In this document: positions 90-16,471 of the stretch, in pieces
Position numbering within the stretch: position 1 is the stretch's first letter
Layout: every line of letters begins with the position of its first letter
Source of the DNA: a virus
Virus record (IMG/VR): IMGVR_UViG_3300035698_026535
Span: 1 to 43,141 of that record
DNA length: 43,141 nucleotides
Reading direction: 5' to 3' (one strand)
The notes under the pieces: generated by a model
What the model saw: the letters and a program-made list of their open reading frames with translations, nothing else
The model's database searches: none
What the model was told of the DNA's origin: nothing
Made by a program: the position numbers and the translations under genes

Positions 90-219
90 ATATTTCAAGT
101 ACCTACGGAACGTAGGGAATTTACGCCCGTGGAGTTTAATACCTCTACATTAAATAATTTTAGATTATTTAATGTAGATACGAAGGAAGATACGATTCTT
201 CAGAATTGCATTAGTTCAC
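90..219 (+). pseudogene. Decayed TnpB 3' end with transposon right end
   Basis: From about base 100 one frame reads ERREFTPVEFNTS, almost the same as the C-terminal ERREFTPVKFNTS of the intact TnpB encoded at 3002-4240. The match continues at DNA level through a hairpin to the shared end TTAGTTCAC (211-219), after which the two copies differ. No TnpB body lies upstream, so only the last ~40 codons and the right end remain, with small deletions. It shows that this element family has been in the genome more than once. Similarity is seen directly; the decay history is inferred. Confidence 0.8.
144..178 (+). ncRNA. Right-end hairpin of TnpB element (candidate omega-RNA stem), copy 1
   Basis: Perfect 15-bp inverted repeat (144-158 with 164-178) around the 5-nt loop TTTAG. 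The same hairpin occurs in the intact element at 3050-3080. Three base pairs differ between the copies and each change is compensated on the other arm, so the structure rather than the sequence appears conserved. In TnpB systems the omega-RNA spans the tnpB 3' end and right end, which is where this stem lies; an RNA role here is inferred. Confidence 0.6.
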
Positions 220-245
220 TTTTATGACATTTAATTCTATTTTAG

Positions 246-280
246 AAAAGGATCCGTTAATCACGGTTCCTTTTCGTTTT
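246..280 (+). terminator. Probable intrinsic terminator before helicase gene
   Basis: Stem AAAAGGATCCGT (246-257) with ACGGTTCCTTTT (263-274), one T-T mismatch, 5-nt loop, followed by CGTTTT. It lies between the TnpB remnant and the helicase gene and would stop upstream transcription. Apart from this and the TnpB scar, the first 344 bases hold no gene. Confidence 0.55.
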
Positions 281-344
281 AAAAACGAGTAAAAAAAACA
301 TCCGTGAATTCTCTGTTATTGACGTGGATTAATTGGAGATAGAT

Positions 345-1778
345 ATGGATTTTAAAGAAATAGAAAAAAATCTAGAAACAACAGAACCAGAAGTAGAACA
401 GACACCTATCGATAAAGAAAACGATATAGAGGTAGAACAATTTGACATCTCTTTAGATTTACAAAGAGATCTTTTGAATTTAATTATAACAGACAGAAGT
501 TTTCTAATCAATTCTCTACGTCTTGTTAATCCAGAATATTTTAAAGATTTGGCACATAAAATAATATGTCGAACATGCCAAGAACATTTTAATGAGTATA
601 GTTCGCCAATTACAGGTGATGTTCTTATACAAGAAGTCAACAAAAAACACGGCGAAAATCGTCAACTCCCAAGAATGCTTGCTGAGATCGATATCATATC
701 AGACAGAACAGAACAAGCATATCAAAACAAAGAATATTACGAAAGAACTGTTAGCAAGTTTGCCAAAGCCCAAGCAATGAAAATGGCAATTGTAAACTCT
801 GTCGATCTTATTGATACTGGCGAATATGAAAAAATAGAAGCTAATATTAGAGAAGCTCTCTTGGTTGCACCAAATGTGTCGTTAGGTATTAATATCTTCG
901 AGAATGTCAGGGAACGATACCGAAAAATATTATCTGAAGCCGAAGGCGAGAAATTTACAACTGGGTGGTCTACTGTAGACCGAGATCTAAATGGCGGAAT
1001 GGGTCGAAAAGAAATTGGACTTATCTTCGCTAACTCAGGGGTAGGAAAATCACTTTGGTTAGCAAAAGTTGGAGTAGAAAACCTAATCAAAATGAAAAAG
1101 ATTTTATTTATTTCATGTGAAATGTCCGAAGAAAGAGTCGCAGAGCGAATCGACTCTATGCTCACTCATATTCCTATAAACGAACTAATATATAAAATAC
1201 CTGAAGTAGAATCTCGAATTGGCGAAATACAAAAATGTATTACCTCTCATATCCAAATCAAAGAATTTCCAGCAGGTGAAGCAACTATAATTGACTTTAA
1301 AGCTTATGCTAATCAACTATACAACTATACTGGTTTTCGTCCTGATTTGATATTATTAGATTATATTGACGAGGTAAGATGTTCAAACTCAAGACTGAAT
1401 ACTTATGAAGGACAATATACTACTCTAAGAGAATATAGAGCATGGATGCAAACAGAGAATATGGGCGGGTATACAGCTACTCAAGCCAATAGAACGGGCC
1501 GCGAAGTTAGTGTTATCGATGAAGGACAGATTGGTGATTCGTATGCTAAAATTAGAGTAACAGATTTGGCATGGTCTCTTAATCAATCACATGAAGAATA
1601 TGGAGTGAATCTTGCCCGTCTCTTTGCGGTCAAACACCGAGGAGGAAGAGGAAGATATTTGATTTGGGTAAAAATAGATCCCAACACTCTAAAGATGAGC
1701 GAAATTACAGAAGCTGAATATGAAAATATTTTAGGTACACATATACCAACAGATGTAGTTGGAGAAGAAAGTTTATGA
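345..1778 (+). CDS. DnaB-family replicative DNA helicase (T4 gp41-like)
   Basis: Hexameric 5'-3' helicase that unwinds the phage replication fork and works with the primase encoded at 7945-8955. The N-terminal ~150 residues form a helical DnaB-N-like region. The C-terminal RecA-fold ATPase has Walker A ANSGVGKS at about residues 229-236 and a Walker B-like LILLDYID near 335-342. The length of 477 aa is normal for gp41/DnaB. I chose the ATG at 345 because GGAGA (335-339) stands 5 nt before it; the TTG at 333 has no such site. It leads the + strand replication block that continues, after the TnpB insertion, with the ssDNA-binding protein and recombinase. Family assignment is secure; gp41 equivalence rests on motif and context. 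Confidence 0.93.
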   Translation: MDFKEIEKNLETTEPEVEQTPIDKENDIEVEQFDISLDLQRDLLNLIITDRSFLINSLRLVNPEYFKDLAHKIICRTCQEHFNEYSSPITGDVLIQEVNKKHGENRQLPRMLAEIDIISDRTEQAYQNKEYYERTVSKFAKAQAMKMAIVNSVDLIDTGEYEKIEANIREALLVAPNVSLGINIFENVRERYRKILSEAEGEKFTTGWSTVDRDLNGGMGRKEIGLIFANSGVGKSLWLAKVGVENLIKMKKILFISCEMSEERVAERIDSMLTHIPINELIYKIPEVESRIGEIQKCITSHIQIKEFPAGEATIIDFKAYANQLYNYTGFRPDLILLDYIDEVRCSNSRLNTYEGQYTTLREYRAWMQTENMGGYTATQANRTGREVSVIDEGQIGDSYAKIRVTDLAWSLNQSHEEYGVNLARLFAVKHRGGRGRYLIWVKIDPNTLKMSEITEAEYENILGTHIPTDVVGEESL

Positions 1779-1795
1779 AACGTAATAATATATGG

Positions 1796-1837
1796 AAAAA
1801 TTGATCCTTCTTTCTTTATTAATAAGTATCAATTTTT
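1796..1837 (+). terminator. Hairpin after helicase gene, possible terminator
   Basis: AAAAATTGAT (1796-1805) pairs with ATCAATTTTT (1828-1837) and the right arm runs into a T-tract. The loop is long (22 nt) and contains the self-complementary TTATTAATAA. It sits in the 78-bp gap between the helicase and the GroES-like gene and could end or attenuate helicase transcription. The A+T-rich stem makes this moderate evidence only. Confidence 0.4.
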
Positions 1838-1856
1838 TTAACAAGGAGAAATCAAT

Positions 1857-2243
1857 ATGAAAAAAATAGTTCCAATGGATCCGCAAATTCTGTGCGTGAA
1901 AATTGAACTTCAAAGTCAGGTAGGTAAATTTATTATACCAGGCCAAGACGAAAAAATTAGTGCGGTTAGAAAAGTCGTAGGAGTTAGTTCTGCCGCAGAA
2001 AAAAGAAATATTTCAGAAGGAGATATTGTAGTTACAAGAGGAATTCAATATCCACATATTCCAAAATACCTAACAGAAAACGACGAAGTACCTTTTCGCA
2101 CAGATGACACTGTTGAGATCTTAGATGTTTCTCAGATTATTGCAGTGTACAAAGAAGAAAACAAAATAGAAAAAGAAAAAAGAGCAGTATACAAACAAGA
2201 AACTACAGCGTGTCAAGAAACACGAAAAAAAAATATGAACTGA
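1857..2243 (+). CDS. GroES/gp31-like co-chaperonin (diverged)
   Basis: 128-aa protein whose first ~100 residues follow the GroES pattern: an early strand ILCVKIEL, then GKFIIPG where GroES has its mobile-loop and IIP region, a conserved-looking VRKVVGV, GDIVVTRG, and a terminal strand SQIIAVYKEE. Phage T4 encodes such a protein (gp31), which replaces GroES on the host GroEL so the major capsid protein folds; the same role is inferred here. The last ~30 residues are charged and rich in Lys/Glu, an extension not usual in GroES. Ribosome site AAGGAG precedes the ATG by 8 nt. The fold call is from pattern reading, so another small beta-barrel is possible. Confidence 0.55.
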   Translation: MKKIVPMDPQILCVKIELQSQVGKFIIPGQDEKISAVRKVVGVSSAAEKRNISEGDIVVTRGIQYPHIPKYLTENDEVPFRTDDTVEILDVSQIIAVYKEENKIEKEKRAVYKQETTACQETRKKNMN

Positions 2244-2257
2244 AAGGAGAAAGAGAA

Positions 2258-2752
2258 ATGGAAGCTATTCCACATATAGAAGTAGACATCACGATTTTTG
2301 AAGAAACATTTACTAGAAATATTAATGAAGATTTATTGGTAAGCTCCGAACATCTCGATGAATGTTTAGAAAAACAAGCTGCGCTTTACGCATACTATTC
2401 AGTAAGAATGCAACAAGCTACGACAATGCGTGACCAGGCAGAATTTGAATATAGTAAAATCATAAATGAAGCTATGCAAGTTGTAAGAGTAGAGCTTATT
2501 GATGAAAAAATTCGAGTAACTGATAAACAAGTTGAGGCTAGAGTAAAAAGTATTCCAGAAATTATATTAGCAAAACAAGAATATCTTGATGCATGCTCTA
2601 AAAGAGATCAATTATATGCCTTGGTGAGAGCATTAGAACATAAAAAAGATGCGGTACTTGCATTGGCTTACCGTAGGAGAAGCGAAATTGATGCTCTTAC
2701 AAATCACGTTGCTTATTCAAAAATTATTCCTAGATCAGGAATTGAGGAATAA
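2258..2752 (+). CDS. Conserved-type helical protein, function unknown
   Basis: 164-aa, strongly charged protein, predicted almost all alpha-helical from about residue 35, with heptad-like stretches such as LDECLEKQAALYAYY and KQEYLDACSKRDQLYALV that suggest a coiled coil. No enzyme motif is visible. The ATG at 2258 is chosen because AAGGAGA (2243-2249) lies 8 nt upstream and directly follows the stop of the GroES-like gene; an ATG at 2210 would overlap that gene. It is followed 2 nt later by the next small gene, so the three genes from 1857 probably form one transcript. Its place among replication genes suggests a DNA-metabolism accessory, but that is a guess. Confidence 0.75.
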   Translation: MEAIPHIEVDITIFEETFTRNINEDLLVSSEHLDECLEKQAALYAYYSVRMQQATTMRDQAEFEYSKIINEAMQVVRVELIDEKIRVTDKQVEARVKSIPEIILAKQEYLDACSKRDQLYALVRALEHKKDAVLALAYRRRSEIDALTNHVAYSKIIPRSGIEE

Positions 2753-2754
2753 TA

Positions 2755-3000
2755 ATGCCTAAGATTAAAATATTCAGATCAGATATTAAAAAACTACTTG
2801 ATTCTCTGCCGCCAAATTTAAAAGTTCCACTAAAAAAAGATCCTATTACTGCCATGAATACTGATCAAATAATGCAACAAATCGATGAGAAAACACCAAT
2901 TGGCAAACAGTATTATCTTCAATTAGTAGAAGTTGTATACAAAAAGAAAAAAGATAAAACATGGAAAAAATTTGGAGAAGGCGAAGGAACGATTTTGTGA
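2755..3000 (+). CDS. Small basic protein, function unknown; 3' end at TnpB insertion
   Basis: 81-aa Lys-rich protein with no motif I recognise. It starts 2 nt after the upstream stop with GAGG in the preceding codons, so translation is probably coupled. Its stop codon TGA (2998-3000) lies in GTGAAC, the sequence that forms the end of the TnpB element on the other strand (TTAGTTCAC in tnpB sense). The element therefore abuts or supplies the stop, and the gene may have been shortened by the insertion. The C-terminal residues GEGEGTIL give no sign of a conserved end. Comparison with an element-free relative would settle the original length. Confidence 0.65.
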   Translation: MPKIKIFRSDIKKLLDSLPPNLKVPLKKDPITAMNTDQIMQQIDEKTPIGKQYYLQLVEVVYKKKKDKTWKKFGEGEGTIL

Positions 3001-3001
3001 A

Positions 3002-4240
3002 CTAACACAACTCTGAAGAGTCATATCTTCCTGATTCAATGTTCATACTTGCACTAGATAATCTAAGATTATCTAGTGCAGAGGTATTAAACTTCACAGG
3101 CGTAAATTCCCTACGTTCCATAGGTAATGATTCTAACAAAATATTATAACTAGAATGGACATCTCTATCTTTAGAGTATCCACAGCGACAATTATAAATC
3201 CTATCAGACAAACTAATTTTATTTAATAAACCACATTTGTTACATAGTTGAGTACTTGGAAAATACCTATCAACAATGGATGTCTGCGGAAGTTTTTTGA
3301 TTTCCGAAATTATCCCACCCATTATTGATTGTTGTACTTGTTTGCCAAATAAACCACTGTGCCAACCTTTGATATTTTCATCTTGAATTGCAATATGCGA
3401 ATAATTATTTTTTAAATAACTAACTATTTTATTTTTAACATCTTTCTTTCTATTAGTTAATTTTTCATATATTAATCCTACTTTATTTTTTTGTTTCCTA
3501 TAATTATTACTACCTTTTATTTTTTTAGATAACTTTCGTTGTTCTTGTTTGATTTTATTTGTAATTGGAAATTTGGTTTGAAATTTTATCCCATTGGAAA
3601 GTGTTAAATCATTTTTGATTCCAAAATCAATTCCAACTACTTCTTTAGAGTTATTTTGTTTCTCCTTATCAAAATAACAAATAACATGCATATAATAACC
3701 TGATGGTTTTTTAATTAGATTGGCATTAGCAAATTCAACATTTTTAGGTATTTGTTCTAACCCTTTGACGTAAAATAAAGATTTGCATTTCTGTAATTTC
3801 AATCTATTGTTTATAAATTTATAAGTATATCCGTATTGTTTTAAAGGTATTGAATTTATTTGACATTTATATTTTAGTTTACCAATTTTATTATTTCTTT
3901 TTTTCTTGGAAGATAAAGCTTTGATTGAAGTCCAAGTTCTTTGTAATAATTCTTGTTTTATTTGACTACCAATTACTTCTAATTCTCTAAGTTCTTCTTC
4001 TTTTTCTTTATTTAATACTTTAACTTTTTTCTTTTTCGTGTTATAATTGGTCAAATCATTAAAAGAAATAATATCATTATATATCCATTTTGCTTCCAGA
4101 AACAATTTATTCAGAAAATATTTTTGTTTATTATTCAATTTGTTAGATTGAATTTTTAATTCAAATACTTTACAGACTTGACTTTCTCGTCTAAGCCTTG
4201 TTTTAATCAAAGATTCTTTAATTTGTTGATTTTTACTCAT
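3002..4240 (-). CDS. tnpB: TnpB RNA-guided nuclease (RuvC, OrfB zinc ribbon)
   Basis: RNA-guided DNA endonuclease of the IS200/IS605 family and ancestor of Cas12. The RuvC triad appears intact: Asp in VVGIDFGIKND (about residue 205), Glu in AIQDENIKGW (about 288), Asp in KDRDVHSSYNI (about 360). A zinc ribbon CNKCG...CRCGY lies between the last two. At 412 aa it is near the usual TnpB length. No ribosome site is seen; the ATG at 4240 gives a normal TnpB N terminus, with longer alternatives at 4267 and 4273. The last ~40 codons carry the right-end hairpin. Guide specificity would come from sequence beyond TTAGTTCAC, here the antisense of the 3' end of the gene at 2755-3000. Activity is inferred from intact motifs. 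Confidence 0.93.
   Translation of the reverse strand: MSKNQQIKESLIKTRLRRESQVCKVFELKIQSNKLNNKQKYFLNKLFLEAKWIYNDIISFNDLTNYNTKKKKVKVLNKEKEEELRELEVIGSQIKQELLQRTWTSIKALSSKKKRNNKIGKLKYKCQINSIPLKQYGYTYKFINNRLKLQKCKSLFYVKGLEQIPKNVEFANANLIKKPSGYYMHVICYFDKEKQNNSKEVVGIDFGIKNDLTLSNGIKFQTKFPITNKIKQEQRKLSKKIKGSNNYRKQKNKVGLIYEKLTNRKKDVKNKIVSYLKNNYSHIAIQDENIKGWHSGLFGKQVQQSIMGGIISEIKKLPQTSIVDRYFPSTQLCNKCGLLNKISLSDRIYNCRCGYSKDRDVHSSYNILLESLPMERREFTPVKFNTSALDNLRLSSASMNIESGRYDSSELC
3050..3080 (-). ncRNA. Right-end hairpin of TnpB element (candidate omega-RNA stem), copy 2
   Basis: Perfect 13-bp inverted repeat TGCACTAGATAAT (3050-3062) with ATTATCTAGTGCA (3068-3080), 5-nt loop, inside the last codons of tnpB. 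Relative to the copy at 144-178 three base pairs change from A-T or T-A to G-C or C-G with both partners altered. This is covariation over a coding region and fits an RNA scaffold function shared by TnpB systems. Confidence 0.6.
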
Positions 4241-4345
4241 TATTCTACTAGTATATATTATTGACATTATCATAATTATTAATTCAGGTTAGTTTATTTT
4301 ACCCGCGTGACAAGTAGAGATTAACAATTTTGTAAGGAGAAAAGA

Positions 4346-5092
4346 ATGGGGTTTTTAGTTACTATTAAATATCATTCTAAATTAGAAGATGGAAAATTTG
4401 GATATGATATGGAACAAGAAGAAGAACAATCATTAAAGGTGGGCAATAAAGAAGATAATATTACCCATGAAGAATTAGCTATTGCAATTCTCAAGCAGCT
4501 GTCTAGAAGAGACATACTTGTAAGTGAAGTTGAAGCCGTACAGTTTATAAAGAAAACACTTAAAGTGAAAGAATCAAAAAATGGTATAATTATTGGTCAT
4601 AAGAAATACACTTTTGATGACGTAAAAGATTTAGGATCTGTGCATATAGAAGAAATCAATCGAAACGAACCCCTACCTCCTCAACCTCAACCGAACGCTC
4701 AGCTAGAAAAAGTAAATCTTTCTCAAGTTCCTGTTTCTCAGATACCGCCAAATTCCATGCCGATTATTAAAGTAGAATTCTTTGAACCAGAACCCGCCTA
4801 CCAAAAATTTAGTCAACAATTTCAACAAATGGGACTTACAGTTGGGAAGAAATATAAGATTATAAAAGAAATAGGAATGCCTTCTATTAGTGGAGGAGTG
4901 GATGTTACAAAATATAAAATCATTAATGATACTGGCGGGACTATTGATGTTCCCGTTCAACACTTCACTGCGACATCGATGAGCGGGCAACTAGACCAAA
5001 CAAATACATCAGAAGGACCAGCTCCTGAAATACCTTTATCCTATAGCGGAAGAGATTCAGGAGGATCTGGAGGAATGATTACTTTACGCTAA
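4346..5092 (+). CDS. Unknown protein with proline-rich linker
   Basis: 248-aa protein I do not recognise. Residues 1-105 are a mixed alpha/beta region; about 110-140 is a Pro/Gln-rich linker (PLPPQPQPNAQ); then a second compact region contains GKKYKIIKEIG and KYKIINDTGGTIDVPVQHF, a pattern like the small beta-barrel domains in which a regulatory protein contacts ligand or DNA. The tail is Gly/Ser-rich (GRDSGGSGG). A strong site AAGGAGA precedes the ATG by 7 nt. It sits directly after the TnpB element and before the ssDNA-binding protein gene. No signal peptide or membrane segment. A role in replication is only suggested by position. Confidence 0.75.
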   Translation: MGFLVTIKYHSKLEDGKFGYDMEQEEEQSLKVGNKEDNITHEELAIAILKQLSRRDILVSEVEAVQFIKKTLKVKESKNGIIIGHKKYTFDDVKDLGSVHIEEINRNEPLPPQPQPNAQLEKVNLSQVPVSQIPPNSMPIIKVEFFEPEPAYQKFSQQFQQMGLTVGKKYKIIKEIGMPSISGGVDVTKYKIINDTGGTIDVPVQHFTATSMSGQLDQTNTSEGPAPEIPLSYSGRDSGGSGGMITLR

Positions 5093-13654: not shown

Positions 13655-15460
13655 TTACTTTCTTTCTTTGTTTCGTGTATTTACTCCATATATCTTATTT
13701 CCACAATCAAATATACGTAAATAATTATTATCTGACATATTCTCTATTTCGCTCTTATTAGAATCGAAATTTTCTAATAAATCAAATAATTTATGTTTTT
13801 GAAACTTTATACGTGAATATAATTGCGTGTTTGGTAATTTGAAATACCAATAATTAGGACTTGAATAATGGCTAAAAGTCATTCCTAGTTGTTTATACAA
13901 ATTACCATTGCTATATCTTCTATCAGCATAACTAACTACACTTTTAATATTATAATTTGTAATAAAATATTTATATAATTTAGACGCACCTCCTATTACT
14001 GATACAAATCTTTTGTTACAAAAACGTATCAGTTCATATTGATATTTTTTACTGAATCTAGTTTTACCAAATGTCATAATACAAACTAATTCATTTTCAT
14101 AAAATAAGCCTAATTTTATATTACTATGGCAATATCCCTGCAAATGATTATTATTCAAAAATTCTTTTATTATCTTATTATCACTTATTTCTCTAATCTC
14201 TGTTTTTCTGCCATATATTCGTTTATTTCTACCTAATTTGTAACTAATTATGCTTTTCCATATTTCTTGTTTTATCGGATTTGTCCATTCGTTTTCAAAT
14301 ATATGTAATAAATGCACTCCTTTTTTCTCGCACATTTCAGTTTTCATTAGATGATAATTTTTATTATGCTTGGAATGCCAATATAATCCATTAAATTCTA
14401 TAGCTAACTTATAATCTGGTAGATAAATATCTAATTCATAAGGAGATATAATTTTTCTTGTATTCATTTCAATATTAGATATATTTAAAAATTTTATTAT
14501 TTCTTTTTCACCCCGAGATGATGGCCTAGTTACTATTGCTATATTATGTTTTGTTAAATAATTAGAAATAGTGCTATAACTTATGTTCAAAATATCTGCC
14601 ATATCAACTAAAGATTTTTTTTCCAAATGATGTTTATGATACATCCAGTTATAATCTCTCAGTTTCTCTAAAGATTCTTTTGACACATTGTGATGTGATA
14701 TATTTCTTCTGTTTTTTATTTTATCAATCACTGCAGGAATTTGAAACGAATTTTTTACGCCATATTTTTCTAGCAATGTCTGTTTGTATTTATATTTATA
14801 ATCTTGAGACGAAGAAAAGTGTTTGACTCCATATCTCTTTAAGCATGTTTCTTTATATATTTTTTTGACTTGTTTATTTTGAGCAGGATTTTCAACTCCA
14901 TATTTTTTCAAACATGTTTTCTTTTTTTTATCTTGAATTTTTTTGCTTTGTGAAGCATTTTCAACTCCATGTCTTTCTAAACATGTTTTCTTCATTTTAT
15001 CTTGAACATACTTTAGTTTAGTAGGATTTTCAACCCCATATTTTTTTAAATTATTGTTTTTTATTTTATTTTTTATTTTAATGGATTGTATTGGGTACTC
15101 ATGCCCGTATTTTTCTAAATTTGTTTTTTTCCTTTTTTCTTTTTGTTTTATATCATTAGCAGAACATTTCTTGGAACAATATTTTCCATATCCTTTACTA
15201 TATCCTAAAAATTTTATTTTACAAACACACTCTTGTCGCAAACATTTTTTTACATCAAATATATCATGCATAATATTATATACTCTTTCAGAAAAAAGCA
15301 CGTTTTTATCCAAATAAGAAGTATGATAAACTATAAAATTGTATTCTTTTTCATAATTAAAATTAACAAACCATGTTTTTTTAGTTCTTCTTGATAATAT
15401 CTGACCATATCGAGAAATCAAATTATCATTAATAAAAAATTTCAATAAGTTTCTATCCAT
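13655..15460 (-). CDS. Homing endonuclease, Vsr/EDxHD type, with YGVENP repeats
   Basis: 601 aa. An N-terminal cysteine-bearing region (CLRQECVCKIKF...YCSKKC, probable zinc finger) is followed by six to seven ~24-residue repeats centred on KKYGVENPxQ, a feature of large phage homing endonucleases and likely DNA-reading helices. A helix-turn-helix-like segment MADILNISYSTISNYLTKHN comes next. The nuclease domain begins at GEKEI and has SPYELDIYLPDYKLAIEFNG then YWH near 338-362, the PD-(D/E)XK/Vsr-like core, and HIFENEW. A long conserved C-terminal region follows. Its ribosome site CAGGAG is the last two codons of the actin-like gene. A full paralogue is encoded at 16502-18175, on the other side of that gene. 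Confidence 0.85.
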   Translation of the reverse strand: MDRNLLKFFINDNLISRYGQILSRRTKKTWFVNFNYEKEYNFIVYHTSYLDKNVLFSERVYNIMHDIFDVKKCLRQECVCKIKFLGYSKGYGKYCSKKCSANDIKQKEKRKKTNLEKYGHEYPIQSIKIKNKIKNNNLKKYGVENPTKLKYVQDKMKKTCLERHGVENASQSKKIQDKKKKTCLKKYGVENPAQNKQVKKIYKETCLKRYGVKHFSSSQDYKYKYKQTLLEKYGVKNSFQIPAVIDKIKNRRNISHHNVSKESLEKLRDYNWMYHKHHLEKKSLVDMADILNISYSTISNYLTKHNIAIVTRPSSRGEKEIIKFLNISNIEMNTRKIISPYELDIYLPDYKLAIEFNGLYWHSKHNKNYHLMKTEMCEKKGVHLLHIFENEWTNPIKQEIWKSIISYKLGRNKRIYGRKTEIREISDNKIIKEFLNNNHLQGYCHSNIKLGLFYENELVCIMTFGKTRFSKKYQYELIRFCNKRFVSVIGGASKLYKYFITNYNIKSVVSYADRRYSNGNLYKQLGMTFSHYSSPNYWYFKLPNTQLYSRIKFQKHKLFDLLENFDSNKSEIENMSDNNYLRIFDCGNKIYGVNTRNKERK

Positions 15461-15463
15461 TTT

Positions 15464-16471
15464 TTACTCCTGATGACTTTCACTCGCTAATAAGCAGCCT
15501 TTAGCCACTGAAAAAATATGATCTGGAGCTAATTTTACTTTTCCAATTTCAATAGGAAAATCTATTGTTTCTAATGTTTTATTGAAAAAATCTATGAAAC
15601 CTTTAGGAGAAGCTGTTCCGCCAGCTATTACAACATCAACTGGTTTGCCAGGATTGGCTTTGGTTCCAGCTTCCTCAATTCCTTGTTTGATTCCTTGAAG
15701 AGCTTTTTCAATCATAATTTGATAGTTATATGCAATTGCTCTCTCAATAGAACTTTGAGGTTCTTTAGAAAGATCAATATCTTTCTTAGCTGTATTGATA
15801 TACGCTACCGTTTCGCCAGTATGTCGAGCTGCTTCTTCGTCAACCCAATCTCCGGCCCTAGTTAAAGAAAACTCTACAACTGGAACAGCATACATTGAAT
15901 AACAACAATTAATCATACCCGCTCCAAACGAAATTGCTATACCAGTTCTATTTTCTTTTTGTAACTCAGAAAATACTAAAGCTTGTGCTTCTTTTATAGG
16001 AAAAGCTTTAATTGATTTTCCGTCTTGTTTATAATGGTCTAAAATTGATTGAATAACTTTAGTGTGATATCCAGCATTAGTTTTAGTGTTTATTGCATCG
16101 GCTGGTACAGAGTAATAAACGATAGTTCCATCTTCTGGTATTTCTCCAATCATTGATCTAATAATAACGGCAAGGATATTAAATGCTTCTTTTTCGTTCA
16201 CCGACAAGATACCATTTCTCATTGGACGTTGATATTCTTTGCCCATAGAAAGTGCTATTTCAATAGCATTTTCTCCTAAAATAAAAGCTTCATCTTCTAC
16301 TTCAACTACAGGAGCTCCAGAATTTTTAATCATGTTAAGCATAAACGAATTAGTAATTGGAATTGTAAAAAAAGCATTGATCTCTTTCTTCATTTCTAAT
16401 TTTTTATTATTTGTTCGTGCGCAAACTATGTTATATGTGCCGATATCCAGTCCAATCCTTTTTTTTCTCAT
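15464..16471 (-). CDS. Actin-like ATPase (ParM/MreB/FtsA superfamily)
   Basis: 335 aa. The actin-fold nucleotide site is complete: phosphate-1 loop RIGLDIGTYNIVCA (5-18), phosphate-2 GIAISFGAGMINCCY (177-191) and adenosine loop VVIAGGTASPKGF (280-292). Phage actin relatives polymerise for DNA or replisome positioning, or segregate prophage plasmids; here the role (filament, DNA positioning, or soluble ATPase) is unknown. No ParR-like partner is evident beside it. The ATG at 16471 has TGGAGA 6 nt upstream. It is tightly flanked by two paralogous homing endonuclease genes, 3 nt after its stop and 30 nt before its start, which suggests the gene is the conserved target of both. Confidence 0.85.
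   Translation of the reverse strand: MRKKRIGLDIGTYNIVCARTNNKKLEMKKEINAFFTIPITNSFMLNMIKNSGAPVVEVEDEAFILGENAIEIALSMGKEYQRPMRNGILSVNEKEAFNILAVIIRSMIGEIPEDGTIVYYSVPADAINTKTNAGYHTKVIQSILDHYKQDGKSIKAFPIKEAQALVFSELQKENRTGIAISFGAGMINCCYSMYAVPVVEFSLTRAGDWVDEEAARHTGETVAYINTAKKDIDLSKEPQSSIERAIAYNYQIMIEKALQGIKQGIEEAGTKANPGKPVDVVIAGGTASPKGFIDFFNKTLETIDFPIEIGKVKLAPDHIFSVAKGCLLASESHQE

Follow-up and report, generated by a model that had tools for sequence, protein, structure and literature searches.

We analysed a 43-kb virus record from IMG/VR (IMGVR_UViG_3300035698_026535, positions 1 to 43,141, hereafter the window), which encodes a gp32-like protein, a RecA/UvsX-like protein, a DnaB-like helicase and a primase. 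The window contains one intact tnpB gene on the minus strand (open reading frame (ORF) 3002-4273, likely start 4240) and two tnpB-type right ends that are 78% alike across 120 bases. Copy B is the right end at the terminus of the intact tnpB, on the minus strand, and copy A is a right end at 99-219 on the plus strand, without a tnpB. We consider it about 90% probable that both right ends encode the omega-RNA scaffold (also called right-end element RNA, reRNA) of a TnpB RNA-guided nuclease. A first-pass annotation of the sequence had described two TnpB right ends. This holds for copy B, while copy A is not an intact end, as a 10-nt deletion after position 183 has removed the 3' strand of its inner stems 2 and 3a. 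The features are listed below, with bit scores from the covariance model R1, which is described further on.

2997-4331, minus strand: candidate complete TnpB-only IS605-like element, from a left end after TTAC (4335-4332), a boundary inferred from the flanks, to a right end finishing in TAGTTCAC
3002-4240, minus strand: tnpB, 412 amino acids, ATG at 4240 with the ORF open from 4273; identified by Pfam and AlphaFold matches
2997-3127, minus strand: copy B omega-RNA scaffold, overlapping the last 41 tnpB codons (372-412) and ending at TTCAC; 122.4 bits with R1, which was built with copy B
3110-3124, minus strand: copy B stem 1, CCTATG-GAA-CGTAGG, whose loop GAA (3116-3118) pairs with TTC (2999-3001) as a pseudoknot
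3030-3100, minus strand: copy B stem 2, CCTG (3097-3100) with CAGG (3030-3033), enclosing stem 3
3050-3080, minus strand: reported hairpin in copy B, forming the distal portion of stem 3, within the tnpB coding sequence and corresponding to model helix 7
3005-3026, minus strand: copy B terminal hairpin adjoining the guide, model helices 8 and 9
2977-2996, minus strand: putative copy B guide, AAAATCGTTCCTTCGCCTTC, from the flanking phage gene; placed after TTCAC as in known TnpB systems, with its length inferred
99-219, plus strand: copy A solo omega-RNA scaffold, no tnpB; 83.1 bits with R1, of which copy A was a seed
146-176, plus strand: reported hairpin in copy A, with pairing that extends to 144-178
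190-211, plus strand: terminal hairpin of copy A, in which 9 of 10 pairs remain
220-239, plus strand: would-be guide of copy A, TTTTATGACATTTAATTCTA, assigned by position only

The first-pass annotation had drawn attention to hairpins at 144-178 and 3050-3080, and both were found there. The stem-loop common to the two copies is 31 nt long, at 146-176 on the plus strand and 3050-3080 on the minus strand. The three compensated base-pair differences claimed for it are present (A-T in copy A to G-C in copy B, T-A to C-G, and A-T to G-C). The hairpins had been called perfect in both copies, which is correct only with a 5-nt loop in copy A, and in a fourth pair only one base is different (T.G in copy A, C-G in copy B). 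In the longer 144-178 version, the outer pair C145-G177 of copy A is an uncompensated C.A in copy B that the annotation had omitted; the 31-nt stem-loop itself stands. The stem is also protein-coding in the intact element, as had been noted, and in copy B it encodes SALDNLRLSSA of TnpB.

We evaluated these differences statistically. When 7 transitions were placed randomly in the stem, the probability that all 14 pairs were kept was 0.038, and that of at least three two-sided changes with all pairs kept was 0.0035. Taken jointly, stem 1, the reported hairpin and the terminal hairpin comprise 31 pairs with 14 differing positions, and 30 pairs were kept compared with 26.1 expected (P = 0.0006). 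The P value ranged from 0.003 to 0.4 by choice of null, so that the two copies alone are weak evidence that suggests a selected structure. The decisive support comes from relatives.

Profile searches identified related TnpBs at 62 viral and 80 cellular loci, and R1 was built from 15 relatives, with copies A and B among the seeds. The right ends of the relatives were found to have in common stem 1, an enclosing stem 2 (CCTGT/ACAGG), stem 3, the motif GGAAG, the terminal hairpin and the end TAGTTCAC. Their stem 3 carries a variable distal hairpin at the position of the reported one. Of 100 loci, viral, bacterial and archaeal, nearly all gave a match of R1 to this structure at the tnpB 3' end (107 hits in total), and most of these loci had played no part in model building. 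A covariance model from more copies had been named beforehand as a check, and it confirmed the structure: across 104 distinct right ends, 87.5% of cells pair, compared with 61% when shuffled and 32-47% when slid, although such pair counts come from alignments fitted to R1 and are hence flattering. Two-sided changes were observed in 38 of 40 modelled pairs, with a covariation of 0.474, compared with 0.136 for shuffled and below 0.10 for slid alignments.

The signal was spread over the whole scaffold. Helices 1 and 2 (stem 1) were 98% and 95% paired and helices 8 and 9 (terminal hairpin) 95% and 87%, with two-sided changes in all pairs of these four helices. Helix 3 (stem 2) was 92% paired with two-sided changes in 4/4 pairs, and helix 7, the counterpart of the reported hairpin, was 85% paired with two-sided changes in all 8 of its modelled pairs. 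An alignment-free fold test on 74 sequences against dinucleotide shuffles gave a mean z of -2.3 between the stem-2 strands and -2.8 for the full scaffold. No Rfam family matched the scaffold at the gathering threshold. Exact matches to a conserved 16-mer in viral contigs were also examined; the two obtained lie in unrelated genes and were discarded as chance.

The stem-1 loop pairs with the 3' end of the RNA, and all three pairs of this pseudoknot were formed in 139 of 149 distinct sequences. The pseudoknot covaries in three types, in which a GAA or GGA loop occurs with UUC, GGG or GAG with CUC, and GAC with GUC; copies A and B both have GAA/TTC. This covariation ties the RNA to the right cleavage end of the element, which fixes its identity as omega-RNA. 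The start of the guide after TTAGTTCAC, as proposed in the first-pass annotation, agrees with the pseudoknot and with the known TnpB layout.

The same features bear on whether the hairpins act instead as single-stranded DNA. The transposases of IS200/IS605 elements read subterminal hairpins as single-stranded DNA, and Y1 TnpA is present in relatives. A hairpin of this kind, or a replication palindrome, could also be perfected without selection, by template switching that copies one arm. Yet TnpA reads one subterminal hairpin, whereas the covariation here extends over several helices and a pseudoknot that links distant segments. Local palindrome correction cannot yield the long-range stem 2 or the pseudoknot, and G-U pairs are frequent. 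We therefore regard the single-stranded DNA explanation as very improbable, and the omega-RNA scaffold, supported by its covariation and pseudoknot in relatives, as the better account of the stem at the tnpB 3' end.

The scaffold resembles the omega-RNA of ISDra2 from Deinococcus radiodurans (PMC10097598, PMC8612924), which likewise overlaps the tnpB 3' end. Its cryogenic electron microscopy (cryo-EM) structure shows the terminal UUC paired with the stem-1 loop; next come stem 2, of 4 bp, and stem 3a, then stem 3b, which is disordered, and finally stem 4, ahead of the guide (PMC10097598). The window shares with it a stem 1 with a GAA/UUC-type pseudoknot, a 4-bp stem 2, a flexible distal hairpin on stem 3 and a terminal hairpin before the guide. 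The reported hairpin is the most variable stem of the scaffold. It corresponds to stem 3b, the distal part of stem 3, and by this analogy is not the functional core. The C-terminal tail of ISDra2 TnpB is disordered and dispensable (PMC10097598), and in both systems the RNA region encodes a disordered TnpB C-terminus, here a predicted one. The two differ in that the host here is a phage, the target-adjacent motif is probably TTAC here versus TTGAT in ISDra2, the RuvC-II motif here is Q-D-E-N-I-K-G-W, and CUC and GUC types of the pseudoknot also occur. A survey of TnpBs (Nety et al. 2023, PMC10278001) similarly found omega-RNA from the 3' end of tnpB mRNA, a conserved terminal hairpin and clades with a moved RuvC-II acid. 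Conservation across 11 Typical TnpBs in that survey was limited to the 3' hairpin, whereas all stems and the pseudoknot were alignable here within one clade, possibly RII-r3 or RII-r5 of that study.

The protein encoded by the intact tnpB matched the Pfam families OrfB_IS605 (1.8e-16) and Cas12f1-like TNB (2.4e-9). Its AlphaFold model, with a mean predicted local distance difference test (pLDDT) score of 86, matched ISDra2 TnpB (8exa, Z 23.2) and ISFba1 TnpB (8iaz, Z 23.1), and the protein is thus predicted to have the WED-REC-RuvC-TNB fold. In the tail encoded by the RNA region, pLDDT fell below 50 after about amino acid 380. D205 and D360 were invariant in 42 of 42 aligned TnpB proteins.

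We next considered the boundaries of the copy B element. When the flanks were joined at 2996 and 4332, the restored gene at 2755 ended GTIL-TAA, directly before the ribosome site of the gene at 4346 (TAAGGAGAAAAGAATG); with the element inserted, the stop of the gene at 2755 is a TGA from the right end. The joined flanks place TTAC before the left end on the element strand, and among 18 related mini-elements from archaea, 14-18 have TTAC conserved at their left end. The joined flanks and the mini-elements together suggest that copy B was inserted after TTAC, with a guide starting AAAATCGTTCC. The expected target would be the empty site, TTAC-AAAATCGTTCCTTCGC, with a predicted junction between GGAACGATTTT and GTAAGGAG. 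The left inner end (AAAATTGTT; 4331-4321) resembles the right flank (AAAATCGTT; 2996-3001), which leaves some ambiguity in the left boundary, and no left-end hairpin was recognised in copy B. The right end is clear. The sequence past the right end was unique in every copy examined. The copy B guide had one match in the window and no self-target there.

Several observations weigh against the omega-RNA interpretation, among them the flattering pair counts. In 42/42 aligned TnpBs, Gln286 takes the place of the canonical RuvC-II Glu. ISDra2 can do without its equivalent of the reported hairpin, and editing in human cells increased once this was deleted (PMC10097598), so that cleavage alone does not explain selection on the hairpin; its pairing may be due to RNA stability, the natural host or transposition. 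No match to a Y1 transposase (PF01797) was found in the window record, and copy B is therefore a TnpB-only element. Relatives G001, G013 and G018 carry Y1 TnpA, and close relatives have a Y1 transposase beside tnpB. Finally, no empty-site relative of the window phage was found via the helicase, UvsX-like, 248-amino-acid and 180-amino-acid neighbour proteins.

For the reported stem in the two copies alone, a null matched for base identity gave P = 0.40, since G-C pairs are scarce in this stem; such a value would fit a chance similarity or a by-product of coding constraint. Yet recoding the peptide with synonymous codons gave much less stable folds than the copy B hairpin (z -4.8, 0/500), and the region enclosing this hairpin had a z of -6.8 against dinucleotide shuffles. 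In the synonymous-codon fold test, P was below 0.05 in 6 of 12 copies (copy B, L024, L025, L089, L100 and L147) and not in the other six. The structure also persists where tnpB is not coded. Together with the helix covariation and the pseudoknot, which refute it, these results leave chance or a coding by-product with practically no credence.

Gln286 also raises the question of whether the TnpB is nuclease-dead or repurposed as a TldR-like RNA-guided repressor, with a regulatory omega-RNA. Phage-encoded TldRs exist (PMC13418256), and the lack of a transposase in the window would fit this. Against it, D205, D360 and an acid at 288 are each kept throughout the alignment. The acid (Glu or Asp) lies two residues on from Gln286, in the motif QDENIKGW of the window TnpB, and its presence in 42/42 proteins is to be read with the fact that the RuvC-II motif was part of the search patterns used to gather them. 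In vitro activity was observed for a TnpB from a clade, possibly of the present type, in which the RuvC-II site is rearranged (PMC10278001). Moreover, relatives reside in ordinary mobile elements with TnpA, and the guide is identical to the flank, which fits a mobile element and not a regulator. We consider a repressor role decidedly unlikely, and nuclease activity of the window TnpB likely from its sequence.

These results are consistent with the following model of the copy B omega-RNA. The RNA folds into stem 1 with its loop-to-3'-end pseudoknot, the 4-bp stem 2, the long stem 3 with the reported hairpin as its distal part, and the terminal hairpin before the guide. Since the scaffold lies in codons for a predicted disordered TnpB tail, its shape could be kept while the amino acids drift. 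If expressed, TnpB would trim the omega-RNA out of its own mRNA, and the next 16-20 nt (AAAATCGTTCCTTCG...), that is the copy B flank, would serve as guide. TnpB would then cut element-free phage genomes at the TTAC-flanked empty site, and such cutting may favour homing, through retention of the element and its spread among co-infecting phages. TnpB-driven retention and gene drive of such elements have been shown in plasmids (PMC11870625).

Copy A is a tnpB-less solo omega-RNA, presumably left by an earlier insertion. It retains 27 amino acids matching the tnpB C-terminus and no more, and no left end was identified within the 98 bases upstream of it in the record. Its guide had no other match and no self-target in the window. 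Copy A could instead function as an independent guide RNA gene that serves the copy B TnpB in trans: despite the loss of tnpB, it still has stem 1 and the pseudoknot as well as the reported and terminal hairpins, and solo units elsewhere keep the whole fold. Yet stems 2 and 3a are broken by the deletion, one terminal-hairpin pair is broken, stem 1 is rearranged in the minimum-energy fold, and no upstream promoter was better than chance. A working copy A thus appears unlikely, and it is most likely a decaying solo unit, because the deletion damages stems 2 and 3a. Elsewhere in the window, at 13655-15460 on the minus strand, a 601-amino-acid protein with DUF7487 repeats and a weak match to an MTES_1575-type nuclease is possibly another selfish endonuclease.

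We expanded the search to 41 whole virus records, scanned with R1, P0001 and, for 11 of them, Pfam PF07282. Omega-RNAs without tnpB were found at G018:26203-26334, G012:26731-26857, G041:6205-6297, G024:116165-116294 and 15760-15854 of Thermus phage phiLo, among others. The unit in G018 scored 110 bits, above the tnpB-linked copy of the same genome. In the solo set including copies A and B, 88.6% of cells pair, on a par with the tnpB-linked set, with model-found hits being biased toward good folds. Phage solo units with well-kept folds and no TnpB directly upstream were also seen at L192:2704-2835, L193:2666-2795, L196:2206-2298 (minus strand), L197:2261-2355 (minus strand) and L203:3732-3858. 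Directly upstream of the unit in L196 is a near-consensus sigma-70 promoter, TTGACA-17-TATACT, clearly above shuffles. Promoters before the units in L192, L197 and L198 were borderline compared with shuffles, and those before the rest were not above them. As the signal is clear only at L196, we make no general promoter claim for phage solo units.

An Asgard archaeon genome (G045, the source of L085) contained 76 R1 hits compared with 42 TnpB domains. At least 33 copies lack tnpB (L204-L236), and the TnpB zinc-finger ORF was absent in all 33 fetched. All 40 fetched copies have different guides, compared as 16-mers. In 14 copies there is a left-end hairpin motif, in most cases together with a TATA box some 32 bases upstream of the RNA; in 18, a tnpB fragment with an internal deletion remains. 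The genome yielded a single Y1 transposase. Among the Asgard copies and six further archaeal copies (41 model hits), two-sided changes occurred in 17 pairs. From their sequences, the Asgard solo units resemble small non-autonomous elements in which a usable guide RNA has been preserved.

Palindrome-associated transposable elements (PATEs) and miniature inverted-repeat transposable elements (MITEs) include non-autonomous derivatives of IS200/IS605. Like these, and like the 'ghost' Spu-1 elements without a Fanzor ORF (PMC10432273), the solo units consist of element ends without a protein gene. Unlike them, the solo units retain a full covarying omega-RNA fold with individual guides. We tentatively propose, at somewhat less than even odds, that the phage and Asgard solo units are working stand-alone guide genes. 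Each would be an IS605-derived unit of about 200 bp, with a left-end hairpin, its own promoter, an omega-RNA and a guide, borrowing TnpB and probably TnpA from elsewhere, so that one TnpB would serve many guides per genome.

The omega-RNA is of a known kind in a new phage setting; less ordinary are the recurring structured omega-RNAs without tnpB. The results reveal that a two-copy covariation spotted by eye in raw phage DNA reflects a genuine RNA fold, and the covarying pseudoknot supports, from evolution alone, a feature known from one cryo-EM structure. For a phage TnpB whose clade has its RuvC-II acid shifted, the analysis yields boundaries, guides and a target-adjacent motif that can be tested. 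If the solo units do act in trans, one TnpB would be multiply programmed by parasitic mini-elements.

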